DNA of 64,000 nucleotides, taken from Corallococcus soli. GTDB taxonomy: Bacteria; Myxococcota; Myxococcia; Myxococcales; Myxococcaceae. Under the pieces are notes generated by a model. The model ran no database searches. It was given only the letters and a program-made list of their open reading frames with translations, and was not told the origin of the DNA. Position numbers and translations under genes: made by a program. The stretch is from contig NZ_JAAIYO010000006.1 in the NCBI RefSeq assembly GCF_014930455.1, positions 186,001-250,000 of the forward strand. The letters are read 5' to 3'. Of the stretch, positions 40,207-49,660 are shown piece after piece (position 1 is the first letter of the stretch; every line of letters starts with the position of its first letter).

Positions 40207-40980
40207 TCACGGCTGGCCCCCGTCGGGGGGCTGGCCGTTCACCACGGCGACGGCGTCCAGGTCGAAGCCCCCGGAAGTGCCGCCGTAGCTGTTGAGCCCC
40301 GTGTCGGTGAGCCGCACGAAGCGCGCGCGGGAGAGGCCCACGTCCGCCAGGTCGAAGCCGTCCCCGCCCGCCACCGTCGGGTCGGTGGGGGAAATGCCGT
40401 TGTCCGGCGCGGAGTGCACCGGGTGCGTGCCGGCGCAGCCCGGAAAGCCCCCATCCTTGTCGGACGGGTCGCAGGCGAAGTCGTACCAGGTGGCGCCGTC
40501 GTCGCTGACGGACACGCGGGCCGTCTCCGCGAAGATGTCGCCGCCGTACTTCTGGAACGCGTTTTCGAAGACGAGCAGGTCCACGCCCGGCCCGTCCACC
40601 GCGAGCAGGTCGGTGAACTCCAGGGTGATGAAGCCACCCCGTCCCAGCGACAGCACGTCGAGCGAACCCGTGTTCTGCCCCGCGCCCACCGGAGGCCCGA
40701 GCACGACGTCCGGGAAGCGGTCCTGCCCGAAGCCGGCCTGGTCGCCGAACTCGTACGCCGTCACCCGGTCCGCGAACGGATCCACCGGACGCACACCCGC
40801 GTCGACGCCGGCATCGTCCGTGCCGGCATCGTCCGTGCCGGCATCATCCGTCCCCGCGTCGGAGCCGGTGCCGGCATCGACGGAGGCCCCCGCGTCCTCC
40901 TGGGGCAAGGGCAGGTTCTCACCGTCGCCCGCGCAAGCGCACAGGGCGAGCAGCGCGCTGAGCGCGAGCAGCGAGCGCAT
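40207..40980 (-). CDS. Small beta-rich lipoprotein of the cobalamin-regulated operon (copy A)
   Basis: 257 residues. A lipoprotein signal (Cys14 or Cys16 in LALCAC), then a DAGT/DDAG linker (about 28-62), then a domain of about 190 residues. Its markers are VDLLVFENAF, ARVSVSDDGATWYDF, GGDGFDLADVGLSRARFVRLTD and a closing GTSGGFDLDAVAVVNG. The pattern suggests a beta-sandwich surface-binding domain. A paralogue lies at 43128-43805 in the same relation to a larger lipoprotein. It follows the larger lipoprotein gene by 2 nt and is therefore under cobalamin riboswitch 1. Corrinoid binding is an inference from regulation. Confidence 0.75.
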   Translation of the reverse strand: MRSLLALSALLALCACAGDGENLPLPQEDAGASVDAGTGSDAGTDDAGTDDAGTDDAGVDAGVRPVDPFADRVTAYEFGDQAGFGQDRFPDVVLGPPVGAGQNTGSLDVLSLGRGGFITLEFTDLLAVDGPGVDLLVFENAFQKYGGDIFAETARVSVSDDGATWYDFACDPSDKDGGFPGCAGTHPVHSAPDNGISPTDPTVAGGDGFDLADVGLSRARFVRLTDTGLNSYGGTSGGFDLDAVAVVNGQPPDGGQP

Positions 40981-40982
40981 GC

Positions 40983-42296
40983 TCACGGCCCCTGCCGGAT
41001 GCGCACGAGGCGGCGGCCGTTGACGTCCGTCACGCCCACGAGCAGGTCGGAGCCCAGCGACGACAGCAGGTCCACGGACGTGCACGCGTCGGAGGCCGTC
41101 AGGACGGGCTCCCGGGCGCCCACGCTCGGGGGCTGTCCGCCGCCCAGGCCGGGCGTGAGCGGGAAGCGCGACACGTCGCTGACGACGAAGGTGAAGCTCG
41201 CGTCGAAGGCGCCACGCGCCACCGCCACGCCAGCGCCAAAGCCCGTGGCGTTGTTGAAGTTGCTGTCCACGTCGACTTCGGGCTCGTCCGTGAGCACCAC
41301 CGGCGTGCGCGAGGACACCGCCGTCGCCAGCTTGGCGGCCGCCACGGCGTGGGCCACGTTCACGTACGTCTGCGGCACCGAGTAGCCGAACACCGCGATG
41401 CCGTTGTCCGCGATGGCGGAGAAGCCGCTGCCGCCCACCTGCGCCGGGAAGCTCACCGCCTTCACTGCCGTGAAGGGCTTGGTGGAGGTCAGCAGCGCGT
41501 AGACGCCCAGGCCGTCCGACACGGTGTCCAGGCCGCCGCCGTTGATGAAGAACGTGTCGGTGGTGCCCGCGGCCGTGAAGTTGGACGGCGCGCTGACGTA
41601 GGTCGTCGCGTCGCGCGCGACCGGGTCGAGCACCGCGACCTTCCCCGAGCCATCCGACTTCGTGTAGCCGGCGAGCAGCCGCGTGCCGTCGTAGGCCAGG
41701 GTGTAGGACGGGAAGGTGCTCGTACCGGCGGCGCGGTCCTCGGGCGCCAGCACGGTGTCGAGCGCCGCCTCGCCCAGCTTCACGTCCGGCCAGGTGCCCA
41801 GCGCGAAGAAGTCACGGCCCGTGGCCGTCGTGCGCAGCGCGAAGAGCGAATAGGCGGGGCCGGGCGTGGACACCACCGCGACCACCTCCGTGGACAGGGG
41901 CGCCGCTTCCGCGACGCTGAAGCCCGGCTGGAGCTGGAGCGTGCCCAGCTTCTCGTCCCGGGGCACGGTGTCGCACAGCCCGCCGGTGCCGCCATCCGTG
42001 CCGCCGTCGGTGCCGGTGCCCGCGTCCGTCTGCGTGCCCGCGTCGGTGCCCGCGTCCGTCTGCGTGCCCGCGTCGGTGCCCGCGTCGTCACCGCCAGTGT
42101 TGGAGTCGACCTGGGTGCACTTCTCCTCCACGCAGGCCCAGCTCTGTCCCTGGGGGGGCGTGCTCTTGTCGCGGCAGTCGAAGGCGTCCACGCACTCCGA
42201 ACCGCAGCCCGTCCCGCCCAGCACCACCGCCAGCAGGCCGCCCAGCAGCGCCGCGCGCTGGCCCTTCGTTCCCATCCGCTTCATGTCGCTCCGCAT
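40983..42296 (-). CDS. Large lipoprotein with DAGT linker and propeller-like domain (copy A)
   Basis: 437 residues. Signal with Cys31 in LGGTGC, a short Cys-rich module (CVDAFDCRD ... ACVEEKC), a repetitive TDAGT linker (about 70-105), then about 330 residues of beta-rich sequence. Recurring blocks include LGTLQL, TPGPAYSLF, SNFTA, INGGGLDTVSDGL, GVGVAVA-like strands and a final NGRRLVRIRQ. This is compatible with a beta-propeller, though blade counting was not possible. It is the first gene after cobalamin riboswitch 1. Its paralogue is at 43805-45271. A surface corrinoid-capture role is inferred. Confidence 0.75.
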   Translation of the reverse strand: MRSDMKRMGTKGQRAALLGGLLAVVLGGTGCGSECVDAFDCRDKSTPPQGQSWACVEEKCTQVDSNTGGDDAGTDAGTQTDAGTDAGTQTDAGTGTDGGTDGGTGGLCDTVPRDEKLGTLQLQPGFSVAEAAPLSTEVVAVVSTPGPAYSLFALRTTATGRDFFALGTWPDVKLGEAALDTVLAPEDRAAGTSTFPSYTLAYDGTRLLAGYTKSDGSGKVAVLDPVARDATTYVSAPSNFTAAGTTDTFFINGGGLDTVSDGLGVYALLTSTKPFTAVKAVSFPAQVGGSGFSAIADNGIAVFGYSVPQTYVNVAHAVAAAKLATAVSSRTPVVLTDEPEVDVDSNFNNATGFGAGVAVARGAFDASFTFVVSDVSRFPLTPGLGGGQPPSVGAREPVLTASDACTSVDLLSSLGSDLLVGVTDVNGRRLVRIRQGP

Positions 42297-42475
42297 CGCG
42301 TCCTCGTTCCCCTCCGCCCGGAGGCGGAAGAATTCCTGACGGGAGGCGGCACGGGCGAAAGGCAACCGGAGCTCCCGCGTGCAACGCACCAGGAGGACCT
42401 GCCTACGCCGTCAGCTCCCCTCGGAGGTTCCGGTCTGTCTTCCGGGCCCTCCGTGAAGAGGGACACCGGCTCATC

Positions 42476-42609
42476 GCCAGGTCTTCGGACTCGCGGGAAC
42501 GGGGCTTCGGATGCGGGCGCCATTCCTGCTCACCGCTGCGGGGCAGTCCCGGACTCACACCGGGTTCCCTGGAAGCCTCCACACCCCATGGTGGGAAGGC
42601 ATCGATGAC
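42476..42609 (-). promoter_or_regulatory. Cobalamin riboswitch 1 (short form)
   Basis: On the minus strand the leader shows the B12-riboswitch core: AGGGAACCCGGTGTGAGTCC, ACTGCCCCGCAGCGGTGAGC and the closing GAGTCCGAAGACCTGGC (complement of 42476-42492). The interval between the core and the closing segment is only about 35 nt, and no CACTG...GGGAAG arm is found, unlike riboswitch 2. The downstream leader shares a conserved CCTCCGAGGGGAG hairpin region with riboswitch 2, about 180 nt before the lipoprotein start. Cobalamin binding would be expected to reduce expression. Confidence 0.88.
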
Positions 42610-42615
42610 GGGGCG

Positions 42616-42644
42616 GGACTACGGCGCCCCCAGTGCAATGTCAA
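42616..42644 (-). promoter_or_regulatory. Predicted promoter of the riboswitch 1 operon
   Basis: TTGACA (42639-42644, minus strand) and TAGTCC (42616-42621) with a 17-nt spacer, placing the start just before the aptamer. The -35 box overlaps the stop codon of the DUF4177-like gene. Confidence 0.6.
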
Positions 42645-42979
42645 TGCGGCGTGGGTTCGGGCTGCTTGCGGCGCATCAGGACGTAGCGCCGCGTGCTGCC
42701 GTCCACGACGACGGTGGACACCACCTGCCAGCCCTCCTCCCCCAGGCGCTGGAGTTCAACGAGGTCCTCCTCCGGGCCCTGGCGGGTCACGAAGGTGTAC
42801 TCGTACGCCGGAGGCGGCGTGGGCGCGGCGGGCGGCGTGGGCGCGGCGACGGGCGCGGCCTTCGTGGACGTGCGCGCGCGCGTCGTCTGGGCCCGGGCGA
42901 CGGTGGGGAAGAGGGAGACGGCGGACACACCGGGGAGGACGCCCATCAACACGAGGAGCGAAGCGAGATGACGGTTCAT
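42641..42979 (-). CDS. Secreted DUF4177-like protein
   Basis: 112 residues. A signal peptide (about 1-31, ending ARAQ), a Pro/Ala/Thr linker, then a compact C-terminal domain: YEYTFVTRQGPEEDLVELQRLGEEGWQVVSTVV...RYVLMRRK. This has the length and GEEGW core of DUF4177 proteins. The function is unknown. It lies between the two cobalamin-regulated operons and has no riboswitch of its own. ATG at 42979, GGAG about 9 nt upstream. Confidence 0.7.
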   Translation of the reverse strand: MNRHLASLLVLMGVLPGVSAVSLFPTVARAQTTRARTSTKAAPVAAPTPPAAPTPPPAYEYTFVTRQGPEEDLVELQRLGEEGWQVVSTVVVDGSTRRYVLMRRKQPEPTPH

Positions 42980-43127: not shown

Positions 43128-43805
43128 CTACGGCAGTTGCACGCCGTTCACCACCGCGACGGCATCCAGGTCGAAGCCGCCGCTGGTGCCCGCGTACCCG
43201 TTGGCGCCGGAGTCCCGGATGCGCACGAAGCGCGCGCGGGTGAGGCCCACGGCGGCCAGGTCGAAGCCGTCCCCGCCCGCCACGGCCGGGTCGGTGGGGG
43301 AGATGCCGTTGCCGGGGCTGGAGTACACGGGCGTGACGCCCGCGCAGCCGGGGAAGTTGCCCGCGGCGTTTCCGGACGCGCACGGGAACTCGAACCAGGT
43401 GACGCCGTCGTCGCTGACGGCCACCACGCCCGTCTCCGCGAACGGCCGGCCACTGGGCCGCAGGAACGGGTTTTCGAAGACGAGCAGGTCCACGCCCGGC
43501 CCGTCCGTCACCGCGATGTCGGTGAACTCCAGGACGATGACGCCGTTCTGTCCCAGCGACAGCACGTCCAGCGAACCCGAACCCGCGCCCGAGCCCTGTG
43601 GAGCGCCCAGCACGATGTTCGGCAGCTGGCCCTGTCCGAACCCGGCGGCGGCGCCAGGTGCGAAGGAGACGATGTGGTCCGCGAATGGATCCCCCACCAG
43701 CGTCTGCTCCAGGGTGGACTCCATCGCCTCATCTCCACCGCACGCCACGGACAGGAGCACGGCGAAGCCCAGGGTGCACGACTTCGAAAGCAGGGAGCGC
43801 ATCAT
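43128..43805 (-). CDS. Small beta-rich lipoprotein of the cobalamin-regulated operon (copy B)
   Basis: 225 residues, lipobox LSVAC (Cys22). It has the same domain as the protein at 40207-40980: GVDLLVFENPF, AVSDDGVTWFEF, GCAGVTPVYSSPGNGISPTDPAVAGGDGFDLAAVGLTRARFVRIRD and GTSGGFDLDAVAVVNG. Unlike copy A it lacks the DAGT linker. The ATG overlaps the stop of the larger lipoprotein by one base (TGATG), so the two are translationally coupled under riboswitch 2. Confidence 0.78.
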   Translation of the reverse strand: MMRSLLSKSCTLGFAVLLSVACGGDEAMESTLEQTLVGDPFADHIVSFAPGAAAGFGQGQLPNIVLGAPQGSGAGSGSLDVLSLGQNGVIVLEFTDIAVTDGPGVDLLVFENPFLRPSGRPFAETGVVAVSDDGVTWFEFPCASGNAAGNFPGCAGVTPVYSSPGNGISPTDPAVAGGDGFDLAAVGLTRARFVRIRDSGANGYAGTSGGFDLDAVAVVNGVQLP

Positions 43806-45271
43806 CACTGCACCTGCTGGATGCGGACCAGACGCGGCCCGTTCTTGTCGTCCAGGCTGACGAGCAGGTCCGCACCGATGGCGGTCATCCCCGTCACGCG
43901 CGTGCACTGGTTCACGTAGGTGAGGACCGGCTGACGCGAGCCGACGGTGACAGCGCCCCCCTCATCCGTCACCGTGAAGGCGAAGCGCGACACGTCGGTG
44001 CCGGCGAAGTTGTAGTTGGGCGGAACGTAGTCGCCGCGAAGCACCGCCACGCCCGTGCCCTGGCCCGCGGCGGCGACGAAGTTGGAGCCCACGTCGAGCG
44101 CGGGCTCATCCGCCACGATGAACGGCGTGCCCGTCCGGAGGGCCGCGTCGATCTTCGCCGGAGCCACCGCGTGGCCCACGTTGGTGAAGGTGTCGTCGGA
44201 GAAGTAGCCGAGCATCGCGACGCCGTTGGTGGCCACGGCGGTGAAGCCGCTGCCGCCCGTGATCGCGGGGAGCGTGCCGACCTTCAGCGACGTGAACGGG
44301 GTGGTGTCCGTCCGCAGCGCGTAGATGGCCAGCCCCGCCGACACCGTATCGAGCCCACCGCCGTTGATGAGGAACGCACCCGGCACGACGCCCGCCGTGA
44401 AGTTGCTCGGCGCGGGGACGTAGGTGGAGGAAGCCGGCGTGACGCTGTCGTAGACCGCCAGCGAGCCCGGATAGCCCGTCCCGGACTTCGTATAGCCGGT
44501 GAGCACGCGCTGACCATCCGACTCCACGAAGCCGTTGAGGAAGAGCATGGCGGAGGGGGCGCGGTCGCCGGGAGCGGCCACGTCGTAGAGCGGGACCGTG
44601 CCCAGCGACACCTGGGGCCACGTGCCCAGCGAGTACAGCGCGTGCGGGCCGGAGGAGCCGCCCGACACCACCGTGAAGAGCGAATATGCAGGCCCCGGCG
44701 TGACACCCACCGGACCCGCCGAGGCCGGCAGCGCGGCCGACTCACCGGCCACGAACTCCGCCGCGAGCTGGAGCGTGCCCAGCTTCGGGTCATACGTGGC
44801 GCTCAGGCAGGGGTCGACAGGGCCCGCGTCGGGCTCCGTGCCGGCATCCGTCCCCGCGTCGGGCTCCGTGCCGGCATCCGTCTCCGTGCCTGCATCGGTT
44901 CCCGCGTCCACCGTCGTGCCCGCGTCCGTCTGCGTGCCAGCGTCGGTGCCCGCATCCGTCTGCGTGCCGGCGTCGGTGCTGGTGCCCGCGTCGGTTCCCG
45001 CATCCACCGTCGTGCCCGCATCCGTCTGCGAACCTGCGTCCGTCTGCGTGCCGGCGTCGGTCCCCGTGCCCGCGTCAGGGACCGGGATGGGCGTCAGCTC
45101 ACAGCGCTGCTCGACACACGCGTAGCGCTGGCCCTCGGGAGGGGCTCCCTGGTCCCGACAGTCGAAGTCATCGGCGCACTCATCGCCGCACCCCGTGCCA
45201 GTCAACGCCATCGCGAAGGTCGTCAGCACCAGCGCGAGCTTCCGCCCCGAAATCATCCGCTCTGTCTTCAT
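43805..45271 (-). CDS. Large lipoprotein with long DAGT linker and propeller-like domain (copy B)
   Basis: 488 residues. Lipobox TGTGC (Cys28), the Cys module CADDFDCRD...ACVEQRC, then a DAGT/TDAGT linker of about 85 residues (twice that of copy A), then the same propeller-like domain (LGTLQLAAEF, TPGPAYSLF, SNFTAG, INGGGLDTVSAGL, final NGPRLVRIQQ). The linker is encoded by a diverged tandem repeat at about 44820-45080. It is the first gene after riboswitch 2 and presumably projects from the outer membrane. Confidence 0.78.
   Translation of the reverse strand: MKTERMISGRKLALVLTTFAMALTGTGCGDECADDFDCRDQGAPPEGQRYACVEQRCELTPIPVPDAGTGTDAGTQTDAGSQTDAGTTVDAGTDAGTSTDAGTQTDAGTDAGTQTDAGTTVDAGTDAGTETDAGTEPDAGTDAGTEPDAGPVDPCLSATYDPKLGTLQLAAEFVAGESAALPASAGPVGVTPGPAYSLFTVVSGGSSGPHALYSLGTWPQVSLGTVPLYDVAAPGDRAPSAMLFLNGFVESDGQRVLTGYTKSGTGYPGSLAVYDSVTPASSTYVPAPSNFTAGVVPGAFLINGGGLDTVSAGLAIYALRTDTTPFTSLKVGTLPAITGGSGFTAVATNGVAMLGYFSDDTFTNVGHAVAPAKIDAALRTGTPFIVADEPALDVGSNFVAAAGQGTGVAVLRGDYVPPNYNFAGTDVSRFAFTVTDEGGAVTVGSRQPVLTYVNQCTRVTGMTAIGADLLVSLDDKNGPRLVRIQQVQ
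44820..45080 (-). repeat. Coding tandem repeat (DAGT linker)
   Basis: Imperfect units of 12-18 bp encode DAGT, TDAGT and TVDAGT runs. The same kind of repeat, shorter, lies in copy A near 42000-42085. The period is a multiple of three and it lies within a CDS, so it is protein low complexity and not a CRISPR or intergenic array. Confidence 0.8.
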
Positions 45272-45444
45272 CCGCGACTGCTCCCTTGCATCGCCCCCAC
45301 GGGCGAGGTGATTCCAAGGGAGGGCGAACGGAGGGCGGACCGCGAACGGAGGACACGTCAGACACGACACGCCGCGCGAGCGGAAGACCCCCGTCACCTC
45401 CCCTCGGAGGCTCCGGTGTGGCCATGCCCGGAGGCATGGGTCGT

Positions 45445-45640
45445 GGCAGGTCTTCGGACTCGCAGGCGCGGGAGGAGCCTCATCGGCTCCACCCATCTAC
45501 TGACCGTCGCTTCCCAAACCCCCTCAGGGGGCCAGTGCTTGCGGGGACGGTGTTCGTTCCTGCTTACCGCTGCGGGGCAGTCCCGGATTCACACCGGGTT
45601 CCCTTTAAACCCCTCATCTGCGTGATGAGGAGTACCGACG
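45445..45640 (-). promoter_or_regulatory. Cobalamin riboswitch 2
   Basis: The minus-strand leader contains AAAGGGAACCCGGTGTGAAT, ACTGCCCCGCAGCGGTAAGC, then a peripheral arm CACTG-(CCCCCTGAGGGGG)-TTTGGGAAG, and the closing GAGTCCGAAGACCTGCC. All standard elements of the cobalamin riboswitch are present. Downstream, CCATGCC/GGCATGG and the CCTCCGAGGGGAGG region can form alternative hairpins as the expression platform. The start of the lipoprotein gene lies about 170 nt further on. Confidence 0.92.
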
Positions 45641-45649
45641 ACGCGCGGT

Positions 45650-45678
45650 GACGTATGGCGGAAGGCAAGGCTTGTCAA
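45650..45678 (-). promoter_or_regulatory. Predicted promoter of the riboswitch 2 operon
   Basis: A consensus TTGACA (45673-45678, minus strand) and TACGTC (45650-45655) with a 17-nt spacer. It lies just downstream of the stop of the Cys-rich lipoprotein, so this operon is independently transcribed. Confidence 0.6.
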
Positions 45679-45697: not shown

Positions 45698-47314
45698 TCA
45701 CGGCACCGCGACGATGTCGATGGCATTGGACACCACGCGCCGTGGGTCCACCGGACACGCATCCAGCGCCGCGCCCTTCGCCTCTGGCGTGGAGTTGCCG
45801 CGCCGCTCCACGAACTTCCCGTCGCGCACCTCCACCACGAACACGCGGCCCGCGTTCACGTCCGTCACGTACACGGCGTTGCCCACCACCGCGAGCCGTC
45901 CGCCCACCGCGAGGTCGCAGCCCTGCTCCGGCCCGCCAGCGCAGCCCGGAGACAGCGCGTAGGACGCCACCGGCCGGTCGTCCTTCACCAGCACCAGCCC
46001 CGTGGCGCGCACGTCCTTCGCTTGATAGCCGCCCGCGGTGTCGAACCGCGCCTCGCCCAGGCAGCTCACCACCAGGTGCTCGCCCACCGCCTGCACGTCG
46101 CCCGCGTTGAGACAGTCCTGGGCCCCCAGGTCGATGGCGCGCACACCCCCATCCGCCGGGTCGATGCGCGCGAGCATCCCAGGGCCATTGGGCAGGTAGT
46201 CGTTCGCGGGGTTCAGGTTGGTGAGCGCGACATAGACGCCCGCGTCCGTGGCCACCGCCGCGTACGGCAGCGCCATCGTCGTGCCGCCGTCGAAGGACTT
46301 GAGGTCCAGGCCGGTGAGCGGAATGGAATCCACGAGCCGGGGACGCTCCGGGTCGCTCACGTTGACGCGCGCCACGGCGTTGCCCTGCCGGAAGTCGGAG
46401 CCGGCGGTGCCGAACAGCGGGATGTAGAACGTGTCACCGCGCTTCGCGATGACCTGCGGGCTGGTGTTCGCGCCCAGGTTCACCTGCCCCACCGTGCGCA
46501 ATCCCAGTCCACCGCCCTGCGCGGGCCCTTCCCGCTTGAGCACCTGGAGCGTGTTGTTCACGGAGTCGAGGACATACACATACGGAGGGTCCACGAGGAT
46601 GTCATTGGGCGACGCCGCCACCGCGCCCAGCGAGTCCTCCTCCACCACGGCCCCCAGCGCGCCCGCCAGCGCCTGCGACAGCACCGAGCGCGCCGCGTCC
46701 GCCGCCAGCACCACGCCGTCCCACGCCGCCAGCGACTGCACGCCCGAGCCGAACTGCCGCCGGGGCCCCATCCGGTCCGTGCCCGCCTGGATGCCGACGA
46801 GCTGCCCGTTGGTGTAGCAGGCCGCCACCACGTCATACATGCACCGGCCCGCGTGGCAGGACTGCACGTCCGGACACACCGTGCCGCAGGCGCCGCAGTT
46901 CAGCGGGTCGCTCGCGAGCACGGCGCAGCCGCCATTGCACCGCTCGGAACCCGGGGGACAGGCCTCCGCGCAGGTGCCCGCGCTGCACACCTGATCCGCG
47001 GGGCACGCGTTGCCGCAGGCGCCGCAGTTGCGCGCATCGGACGACAGGTCGAGGCACGCCTCGCCGCAGGCCGGTGCGCCGGTGCGGCATTCACACGCGC
47101 CCGCCTGACACGTCTCCCCTTCCCCGCACCGGACGCCACAGCCGCCGCAGTTGAAGGGGTCGCCTTGCAGGTCCGCGCACTCGGAGCCGCAGACGTCGAG
47201 TCCGGACGTGCACAGGACCTTCTCCTCCGGACAGCCGGTGAGGACCGAAGTGACCAGGGCGGACACCAGCAGCGTGAGCCACCGCGACCGCGCATCAGGG
47301 AGGGGACGCGACAT
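45698..47314 (-). CDS. Cys-rich, probably beta-propeller surface lipoprotein partnered with the TonB receptor
   Basis: 538 residues. Lipobox LTGC (Cys28), then about 130 residues with three or four Cys-rich units of the type CGxxCxDLxxDxxNCGxCGxxC common in myxobacterial surface proteins, then about 370 residues of propeller-like repeats. Examples are SLAAWDGVVLAADAARSV, PNDILVDPPYVYVLDSVNNTLQVLKREG and VVGNAVYVTDVNAGRVFVVEVRDGK. The gene overlaps the end of the TonB receptor gene by 20 nt, so it is under riboswitch 3. BtuG of Bacteroides is likewise a propeller lipoprotein paired with BtuB; common function is inferred. Confidence 0.8.
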   Translation of the reverse strand: MSRPLPDARSRWLTLLVSALVTSVLTGCPEEKVLCTSGLDVCGSECADLQGDPFNCGGCGVRCGEGETCQAGACECRTGAPACGEACLDLSSDARNCGACGNACPADQVCSAGTCAEACPPGSERCNGGCAVLASDPLNCGACGTVCPDVQSCHAGRCMYDVVAACYTNGQLVGIQAGTDRMGPRRQFGSGVQSLAAWDGVVLAADAARSVLSQALAGALGAVVEEDSLGAVAASPNDILVDPPYVYVLDSVNNTLQVLKREGPAQGGGLGLRTVGQVNLGANTSPQVIAKRGDTFYIPLFGTAGSDFRQGNAVARVNVSDPERPRLVDSIPLTGLDLKSFDGGTTMALPYAAVATDAGVYVALTNLNPANDYLPNGPGMLARIDPADGGVRAIDLGAQDCLNAGDVQAVGEHLVVSCLGEARFDTAGGYQAKDVRATGLVLVKDDRPVASYALSPGCAGGPEQGCDLAVGGRLAVVGNAVYVTDVNAGRVFVVEVRDGKFVERRGNSTPEAKGAALDACPVDPRRVVSNAIDIVAVP

Positions 47315-49340: not shown

Positions 49341-49411
49341 GCTCCGCCTTCCGCTCCCTCCATCGAAGAGAGAAGGCCTCGCGGAGTGTCTCAAGACACG
49401 GCCGCACCCCT

Positions 49412-49620
49412 GGGCAGGTCTCCTGGCTGACGGACTCCAGACCTGGGCGCACACCGCGCCCTTCTGGAAGGAACCCTCCACCTTCCCTCCGCGTCCGGTG
49501 ACGCGAAAGTGGTGACAGCCGAGGCTTCCGGCCCTGGACCTCAGGGCGACCCGTACACAGTGGCGGGACCGCGCCGGACTCGCACCGGCTTCCCTCTTGA
49601 AAGCCCGACATGGGCACCCA
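49412..49620 (-). promoter_or_regulatory. Cobalamin riboswitch 3
   Basis: The minus strand reads AGAGGGAAGCCGGTGCGAGT, CGCGGTCCCGCCACTGT, a GGAAGCC arm and the closing GTCAGCCAGGAGACCTGCC, the classic cobalamin aptamer order. It leads the TonB receptor gene, whose start is about 70 nt beyond the aptamer. GTGTCTTGAGACAC follows the closing segment and could form part of the switch. It belongs to a different sequence subtype from riboswitches 1 and 2 (CCGCCACTGT against CCGCAGCGGT). Confidence 0.95.
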
Positions 49621-49631
49621 AGGGCCCGGCC

Positions 49632-49660
49632 GTTCTAGGAGGTCACCCCTGGCGCGTCAA
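49632..49660 (-). promoter_or_regulatory. Predicted promoter of the TonB receptor operon
   Basis: TTGACG (49655-49660, minus strand) and TAGAAC (49632-49637) with a 17-nt spacer, placing the start about 6 nt before the aptamer. It matches the layout of the two other riboswitch promoters. Confidence 0.65.

Follow-up and report, generated by a model that had tools for sequence, protein, structure and literature searches.

The receptor-lipoprotein locus

The window analysed here is a 64,000-nucleotide stretch of the Corallococcus soli genome (contig NZ_JAAIYO010000006.1). The cluster on its minus strand includes: (i) a cobalamin riboswitch and the gene of a BtuB-like TonB-dependent receptor, (ii) an overlapping gene for a lipoprotein composed of a lipobox, three Cys-rich modules and a beta-propeller domain, and (iii) a second and a third cobalamin riboswitch, each of which is followed by two lipoprotein genes, the first for a protein with a (DAGT)n linker and the second for one that weakly matches the LIC_13355 family (Table 1).

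Table 1. Features of the cluster (window coordinates) and permuted propellers of related loci (locus coordinates)
Feature	Position	Strand	Evidence
Cobalamin riboswitch 5' of receptor gene	49396..49636	(-)	Rfam RF00174, 68.3 bits vs gathering score 31.5
BtuB-like TonB-dependent receptor gene, 681 aa	47295..49340	(-)	Pfam Plug, TonB_dep_Rec_b-barrel
Receptor/lipoprotein gene overlap, 20 nt	47295..47314	(-)	Sequence; receptor stop 47295-47297
BtuG-like lipoprotein gene, 538 aa	45698..47314	(-)	ORF
Predicted signal peptide and lipobox LTG-C28 (residues 1-28)	47231..47314	(-)	Sequence; lipid Cys nearly invariant in relatives
Three Stig1/MXAN_6577-type Cys-rich modules (residues 35-158), proposed stalk	46841..47212	(-)	PF04885, NF041328
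Beta-propeller domain, predicted with seven blades (residues 160-538), proposed lid for B12 capture	45701..46837	(-)	AlphaFold2, Foldseek, VIA-align
Second cobalamin riboswitch	45428..45655	(-)	RF00174, 91.8 bits
Lipoprotein, (DAGT)n linker and C-terminal domain	43805..45271	(-)	Sequence, alignment A7
BtuH-like lipoprotein (putative)	43128..43802	(-)	NF033170 (LIC_13355 family) E 2.8e-10, below cut-off; model
Third cobalamin riboswitch	42459..42621	(-)	RF00174, 68.8 bits
Paralogue of the 43805-45271 lipoprotein	40983..42296	(-)	51% identical, alignment A7
Paralogue of the BtuH-like lipoprotein	40207..40980	(-)	60% identical, alignment A6
Permuted propellers, same operon position	L137:5847-6938, L138:4879-5958, L139:1856-2935, L140:6260-7348		Doubled-sequence test
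Permuted propellers, same operon position	L141:4909-6009, L142:4611-5720, L145:5576-6772, L146:4985-6199		Doubled-sequence test

The lipoprotein frame extends from an ATG at 47314 to a stop codon at 45698-45700 and, as the initial annotation had stated, begins within the last 20 nt of the receptor gene. A Shine-Dalgarno-like GAGGA lies 5 nt 5' of the ATG. The GC content of the gene by codon position is 0.72/0.54/0.91, with the receptor and other genes alike; thus, the minus-strand frame with its GC3 of 0.91 is the coding frame, and the long antisense frames are shadows. The ORF is not a product of chance, as the lipoprotein is matched in 57 of 59 relatives (in distant relatives, the match may be confined to the Cys-rich part) and full-length orthologues occur across the genus and the family. 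Among the relatives, the commonest spacing between receptor and lipoprotein genes is a 4-nt overlap, which is typical of translational coupling.

The receptor gene is taken here from its ATG start, with a longer GTG start possible at 49481. The best NCBIfam model for the encoded protein is TIGR01779 (TonB-B12; E 5e-35), which it matches at 121.1 bits, below the cut-off of 599.7. When the receptor family profile is compared with the PDB, E. coli BtuB occupies the first six places (E about 1e-46), followed by CirA (8e-37), and Bacteroides thetaiotaomicron BtuB2 is also among the matches. The BtuB proteins of E. coli and B. thetaiotaomicron are thus the nearest solved relatives of the receptor, which differs from them in falling below the TIGR01779 cut-off.

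Distribution of the unit and corrinoid requirement

The propeller profile is matched in 152 of 195 Myxococcota genomes. A TonB receptor is encoded directly upstream of every propeller-gene copy in loci L031-L062, and the receptor-propeller pair is found in all loci of L137-L170 except L167. Among the 55 loci with enough upstream DNA to hold a riboswitch, 52 have a cobalamin riboswitch, which is within 700 bp of the receptor in 51 and at the operon head in one; none above threshold is detected in L048, L056 and L150. In L038, a single operon combines the riboswitch, both lipoprotein types, the receptor and the propeller. Two loci are unusual in other ways. In L150 (1-4784), where no riboswitch above threshold lies upstream, two propeller genes are located on either side of one receptor gene. 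L083, a record titled Comamonas sp. KCTC 72670, has a Myxococcus-like locus with a propeller 73% identical to that of the window and is probably a mislabelled or contaminated assembly.

In the C. soli genome, which measures 9.4 Mb and is 99.99% complete, three cobalamin riboswitches are detected, and none lies outside the cluster. CbiG and CbiC/CobH, the latter common to both corrin-synthesis routes, are without a match in this genome, in which nine B12-binding-domain matches are above cut-off; thus, the organism most likely depends on imported corrinoids. A scan of large ORFs in the neighbourhood finds no ABC transporter for B12, and four FecCD-type permease genes are located elsewhere in the genome.

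These data bear on the idea that the receptor-lipoprotein pair imports another ligand (e.g., a siderophore or a peptide) and that the riboswitch is incidental. The sub-threshold TIGR01779 score of the receptor would fit such a role; however, the frequency of the riboswitch among the loci, BtuB as the closest solved receptor, the confinement of the genome's entire cobalamin-riboswitch set to the cluster and the missing corrin-synthesis markers all argue against it, and it is highly improbable.

Domain organization and predicted fold of the lipoprotein

The lipoprotein has the lipobox that the initial annotation reported, and acylation of Cys28 is predicted from its sequence. Where that annotation counted three or four Cys-rich modules, three are found (C35-C74, C76-C115 and C119-C158), with 8 Cys each and 24 Cys in total. 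The Cys-rich part matches Stig1 (Pfam PF04885; E 9.8e-16) and NF041328, the NCBIfam model of MXAN_6577-like cysteine-rich proteins (147 bits vs a cut-off of 100; model positions 3-145 of 145), and AlphaFold2 predicts the modules with a pLDDT of about 85-95. The likeness to MXAN_6577-like proteins and Stig1 thus covers the N-terminal 145 residues over the full model and above its cut-off; the name, however, describes the stalk alone, with the propeller and B12 outside its scope. A plasmid search returns Cys-rich matches only.

No Pfam family covers residues 160-538, in which only traces of NHL/YVTN repeats are detected. The AlphaFold2 model, generated from an alignment with 27 relatives, has a mean pLDDT of 89.6 and a pTM of 0.88. 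Its strands form seven four-stranded blades, the first of which is closed by the C-terminal strand. The propeller-like repeats noted earlier are thus modelled as a seven-bladed propeller and as no other fold, and at the level of the model the propeller fold is settled.

The relationship of this propeller to BtuG is less direct. A Foldseek search of the PDB (about 350,000 chains) ranks 1l0q first and Bacteroides BtuG structures at 2-4 and 6-11, with others lower. The VIA-align Z scores are 34 for 1l0q, about 28-29 for BtuG and about 28 for YncE; thus, non-BtuG propellers equal or outscore BtuG, and a fold this common does not by itself single BtuG out. E. coli YncE and the 1L0Q YVTN propeller share the fold of the lipoprotein but are not known to have a Cys-rich stalk or to belong to a cobalamin-riboswitch unit. 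Sequence profiles appear to favour BtuG slightly. The family profile has BtuG1 as its top PDB match (8ptf/8ptd at 3.4e-6; 8blw_B, which is BtuG1 (PMC10404256), at 2.5e-5) with NHL propellers close behind, and BtuG1 scores are similar to those of NHL and YVTN propellers. A second, independent profile, built from four distant stalkless orthologues, matches 1l0q at 1.4e-8 and BtuG1 at 1.7e-6, with all others at 0.2 or above.

Among the propeller families of Pfam, PF16819 (DUF5074) has been connected with B12 loci (PMC13398666). It has no match in the lipoprotein or in the alignment members and none in the window's genome at E 0.001, and PF16819 matches in other Myxococcota genomes sit away from the receptor-propeller unit; assignment of the family to DUF5074 is rejected. 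As the lipoprotein is also without a short linker, it is classified as a BtuG-like analogue rather than as BtuG, and is probably a distant relative of BtuG.

BtuG1/2/3 of B. thetaiotaomicron (8BLW, 8BMX, 8OKV; 3DSM) are likewise seven-bladed propeller lipoproteins whose genes adjoin one for a BtuB-type receptor and are controlled by a cobalamin riboswitch (PMC6143338, PMC10404256). By contrast, the lipoprotein of C. soli belongs to another phylum, is 11-16% identical to BtuG over the fold and has no DUF5074 match. In BtuG, a short linker joins the lipid Cys to the propeller, whereas here the two are separated by a spacer of about 130 residues with 24 Cys, which is short in several distant orthologues. 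Circular permutants, unlike in BtuG, exist in the myxobacterial family.

The BtuB-BtuG complex of Bacteroides has been solved as a receptor with a capturing lid (PMC10404256). The lipoprotein of C. soli resembles BtuG in every respect testable by context and fold, and the best explanation is that it probably serves as a BtuG-like partner of the BtuB-like cobamide receptor, with the propeller as a surface capture lid. The initial annotation had suggested a BtuG analogue, and this suggestion gains support from the riboswitch 5' of the receptor, the conservation of the unit across the phylum, BtuB as the nearest solved relative of the receptor, BtuG among the nearest solved propellers by sequence and structure, and a BtuH-like fold predicted in a riboswitch-controlled neighbour (see below). 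Averaged over each face of the propeller, conservation shows no difference (p = 0.19), although the 18 most conserved loop residues are all on the DA/BC face (p = 0.002, post hoc choice); thus, conservation mildly favours one functional face.

Variation of the stalk and circular permutation of the propeller

The Cys-rich spacer of the orthologues comprises 0-3 modules. It is absent from L138, L141-L143, L145-L147 and L164 and, as judged by sequence, also from L137, L139 and L140. A single module (8-10 Cys) is present in L144, L155-L158 and L166, while 20-24 Cys are present in many other orthologues, including all Myxococcaceae whose sequence was examined in full. Given this range, the spacer is an optional and variable tether and not an essential part. 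The initial annotation proposed the spacer as a new way to display such a cap; the spacer is absent from BtuG, but the family can dispense with it.

Certain distant orthologues differ in the order of their blades. L137-L140 start at about position 41 of the propeller profile and have the first blade at the protein's end; L141, L142, L145 and L146 start at about position 164-178. In a doubled-sequence test, in which each protein was joined to itself and then matched to the propeller profile, these proteins, once doubled, regain one almost full-length match, the score of which is nearly additive (for L145, 125 + 116 to 248 bits), whereas doubling of unpermuted orthologues brings no gain. The distant orthologues are thus circular permutants, with at least two permuted forms. 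Permutation in a closed ring is, in addition, evidence for the propeller fold that does not depend on the AlphaFold2 model. With at least three circular permutations at one operon position, the lipid anchor would be attached to different blades.

This variation is relevant to how the propeller relates to the receptor. The propeller may instead be envisaged as a B12 binder of the cell surface without a lid function, with the stalk holding it off the receptor (or on vesicles) as an antenna or store from which B12 diffuses on. The tether of the C. soli lipoprotein is much longer than the BtuG linker, and the permuted orthologues anchor a different blade, so the constant anchor geometry that a hinge would need is missing; moreover, the B12 lipoproteins of Bacteroides also load vesicles (PMC12751083). 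By contrast, the strict pairing of propeller and receptor genes and their overlap fit an obligate complex better, and the stalkless orthologues keep the receptor pairing. An antenna or store is thus considered unlikely, though it is, with the periplasmic role discussed below, one of the two strongest rivals to the capture lid.

Riboswitch-controlled neighbours

The BtuH-like lipoprotein (43128-43802) is distinguished by its predicted fold. When its model, which has a mean pLDDT of only 67, is compared with the PDB, two entries alone stand apart, and both are B12 binders: BtuH2, through its B12-binding domain (7biz 317-592, Z 13.1), and BtuG1, through its BtuH domain (8blw_B 392-660, Z 12.2); the score then drops to 8.0. 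The BtuH B12-binding domain had low structural similarity to anything else known at its publication (PMC8941943), and the rarity of the fold makes the match informative. Like BtuH2 (7BIZ) and the BtuH domain of BtuG1, which it resembles in predicted fold, the lipoprotein is controlled by a cobalamin riboswitch; unlike them, it is a separate gene in the window, and its B12 binding is putative. A sequence search against BtuH gives no detectable match, and the link is made by structure comparison alone.

Other features of the neighbours are as follows. The weak LIC_13355 match of the BtuH-like lipoproteins suggests relatives in Leptospira. The proteins encoded at 43805-45271 and 40983-42296 (both minus strand) combine a short Cys motif with a long (DAGT)n linker, and their C-terminal domain is conserved; extra copies of these (DAGT)n-linker lipoproteins are present in other Corallococcus loci (L032, L035 and L067). 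Between the second and third riboswitch operons, 42641-42979 (minus strand) encodes a small secreted protein that ends in a YEYTFVTRQG...GWQVVSTVVVDG domain and is unrelated in appearance. DUF4465/BtuJ was considered for the neighbouring lipoproteins and rejected, as PF14717 has no match in the window's genome and is matched in 1 of 193 Myxococcota genomes.

Proposed location and function

A second alternative to the capture lid is a periplasmic YncE-type propeller, which would face the periplasm and accept or sense B12 after import. The E. coli YncE structures match the model nearly as well as BtuG does, and lipoproteins of the inner leaflet of the outer membrane are the default in many bacteria. 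In addition, a search of the lipoprotein for a sequence signal proving surface exposure finds none. The residues that start with the lipid Cys are CPEEK, which mirror in part the acidic export signal of Bacteroides, and an acidic residue is present at +3/+4 in 18 of 31 cases, with no established myxobacterial export signal for comparison. Two features of the context speak against a periplasmic role: as with BtuG, the gene is strictly paired with that of a BtuB-like receptor behind a cobalamin riboswitch, and a BtuH-like lipoprotein belongs to the same regulon. Similarly, the residue at lipobox +2 is mostly Pro in the relatives and not Lys, which at this position is an inner-membrane signal in M. 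xanthus (PMC3222651), and a periplasmic role would leave the rigid Cys-rich spacer of 130 residues unexplained. The periplasmic propeller is therefore decidedly unlikely.

For the capture lid, the following mechanism is proposed. When cobalamin is scarce, the riboswitch would permit expression of the receptor-lipoprotein mRNA, and the overlapping genes would be translated together. The lipoprotein would be exported, acylated on Cys28, moved to the outer membrane and displayed outside, where its three disulphide-rich modules may act as a stiff tether. The propeller, positioned over the receptor mouth, would capture cobamides, which the receptor would then take over and import in a TonB-driven step. 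Additional B12 binders at the surface, including a BtuH-like one, may come from the neighbouring riboswitch operons, and the BtuH-like lipoproteins would add capture capacity.

With its riboswitches, BtuB-like receptor, propeller and BtuH-like fold, in a genome from which the corrin markers are absent, the cluster looks like a cobamide capture system of the BtuB-BtuG-BtuH type. An evenly balanced possibility is that the Myxococcota have an unrecognised system of this type in which the lid was rewired by at least three permutations, the stalk of the main lineage has one to three modules, and the docking face, not the tether, is what evolution held fixed.

Implications

According to an earlier report, BtuG occurs in Bacteroidetes only (PMC6143338). 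A literature search, largely without subscription papers, finds no description of a BtuG-like capture system in myxobacteria, no paper that joins BtuG and Myxococcota beyond one on DUF4465, and none that deals with the orthologue of M. xanthus or with where it is located. If the capture lid is correct, lipoprotein lids for surface cobamide capture would have an earlier origin, or more origins, than thought, and they would not be a gut adaptation. A likely function would also be available for genes that are now named just for their Cys-rich stalk. With natural circular permutants and stalk-length variants available, a direct test of the tether-and-hinge model for lids of TonB receptors becomes possible. 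For myxobacteria without corrin synthesis, the system suggests a source of the B12 needed by their enzymes and by the CarH light response.
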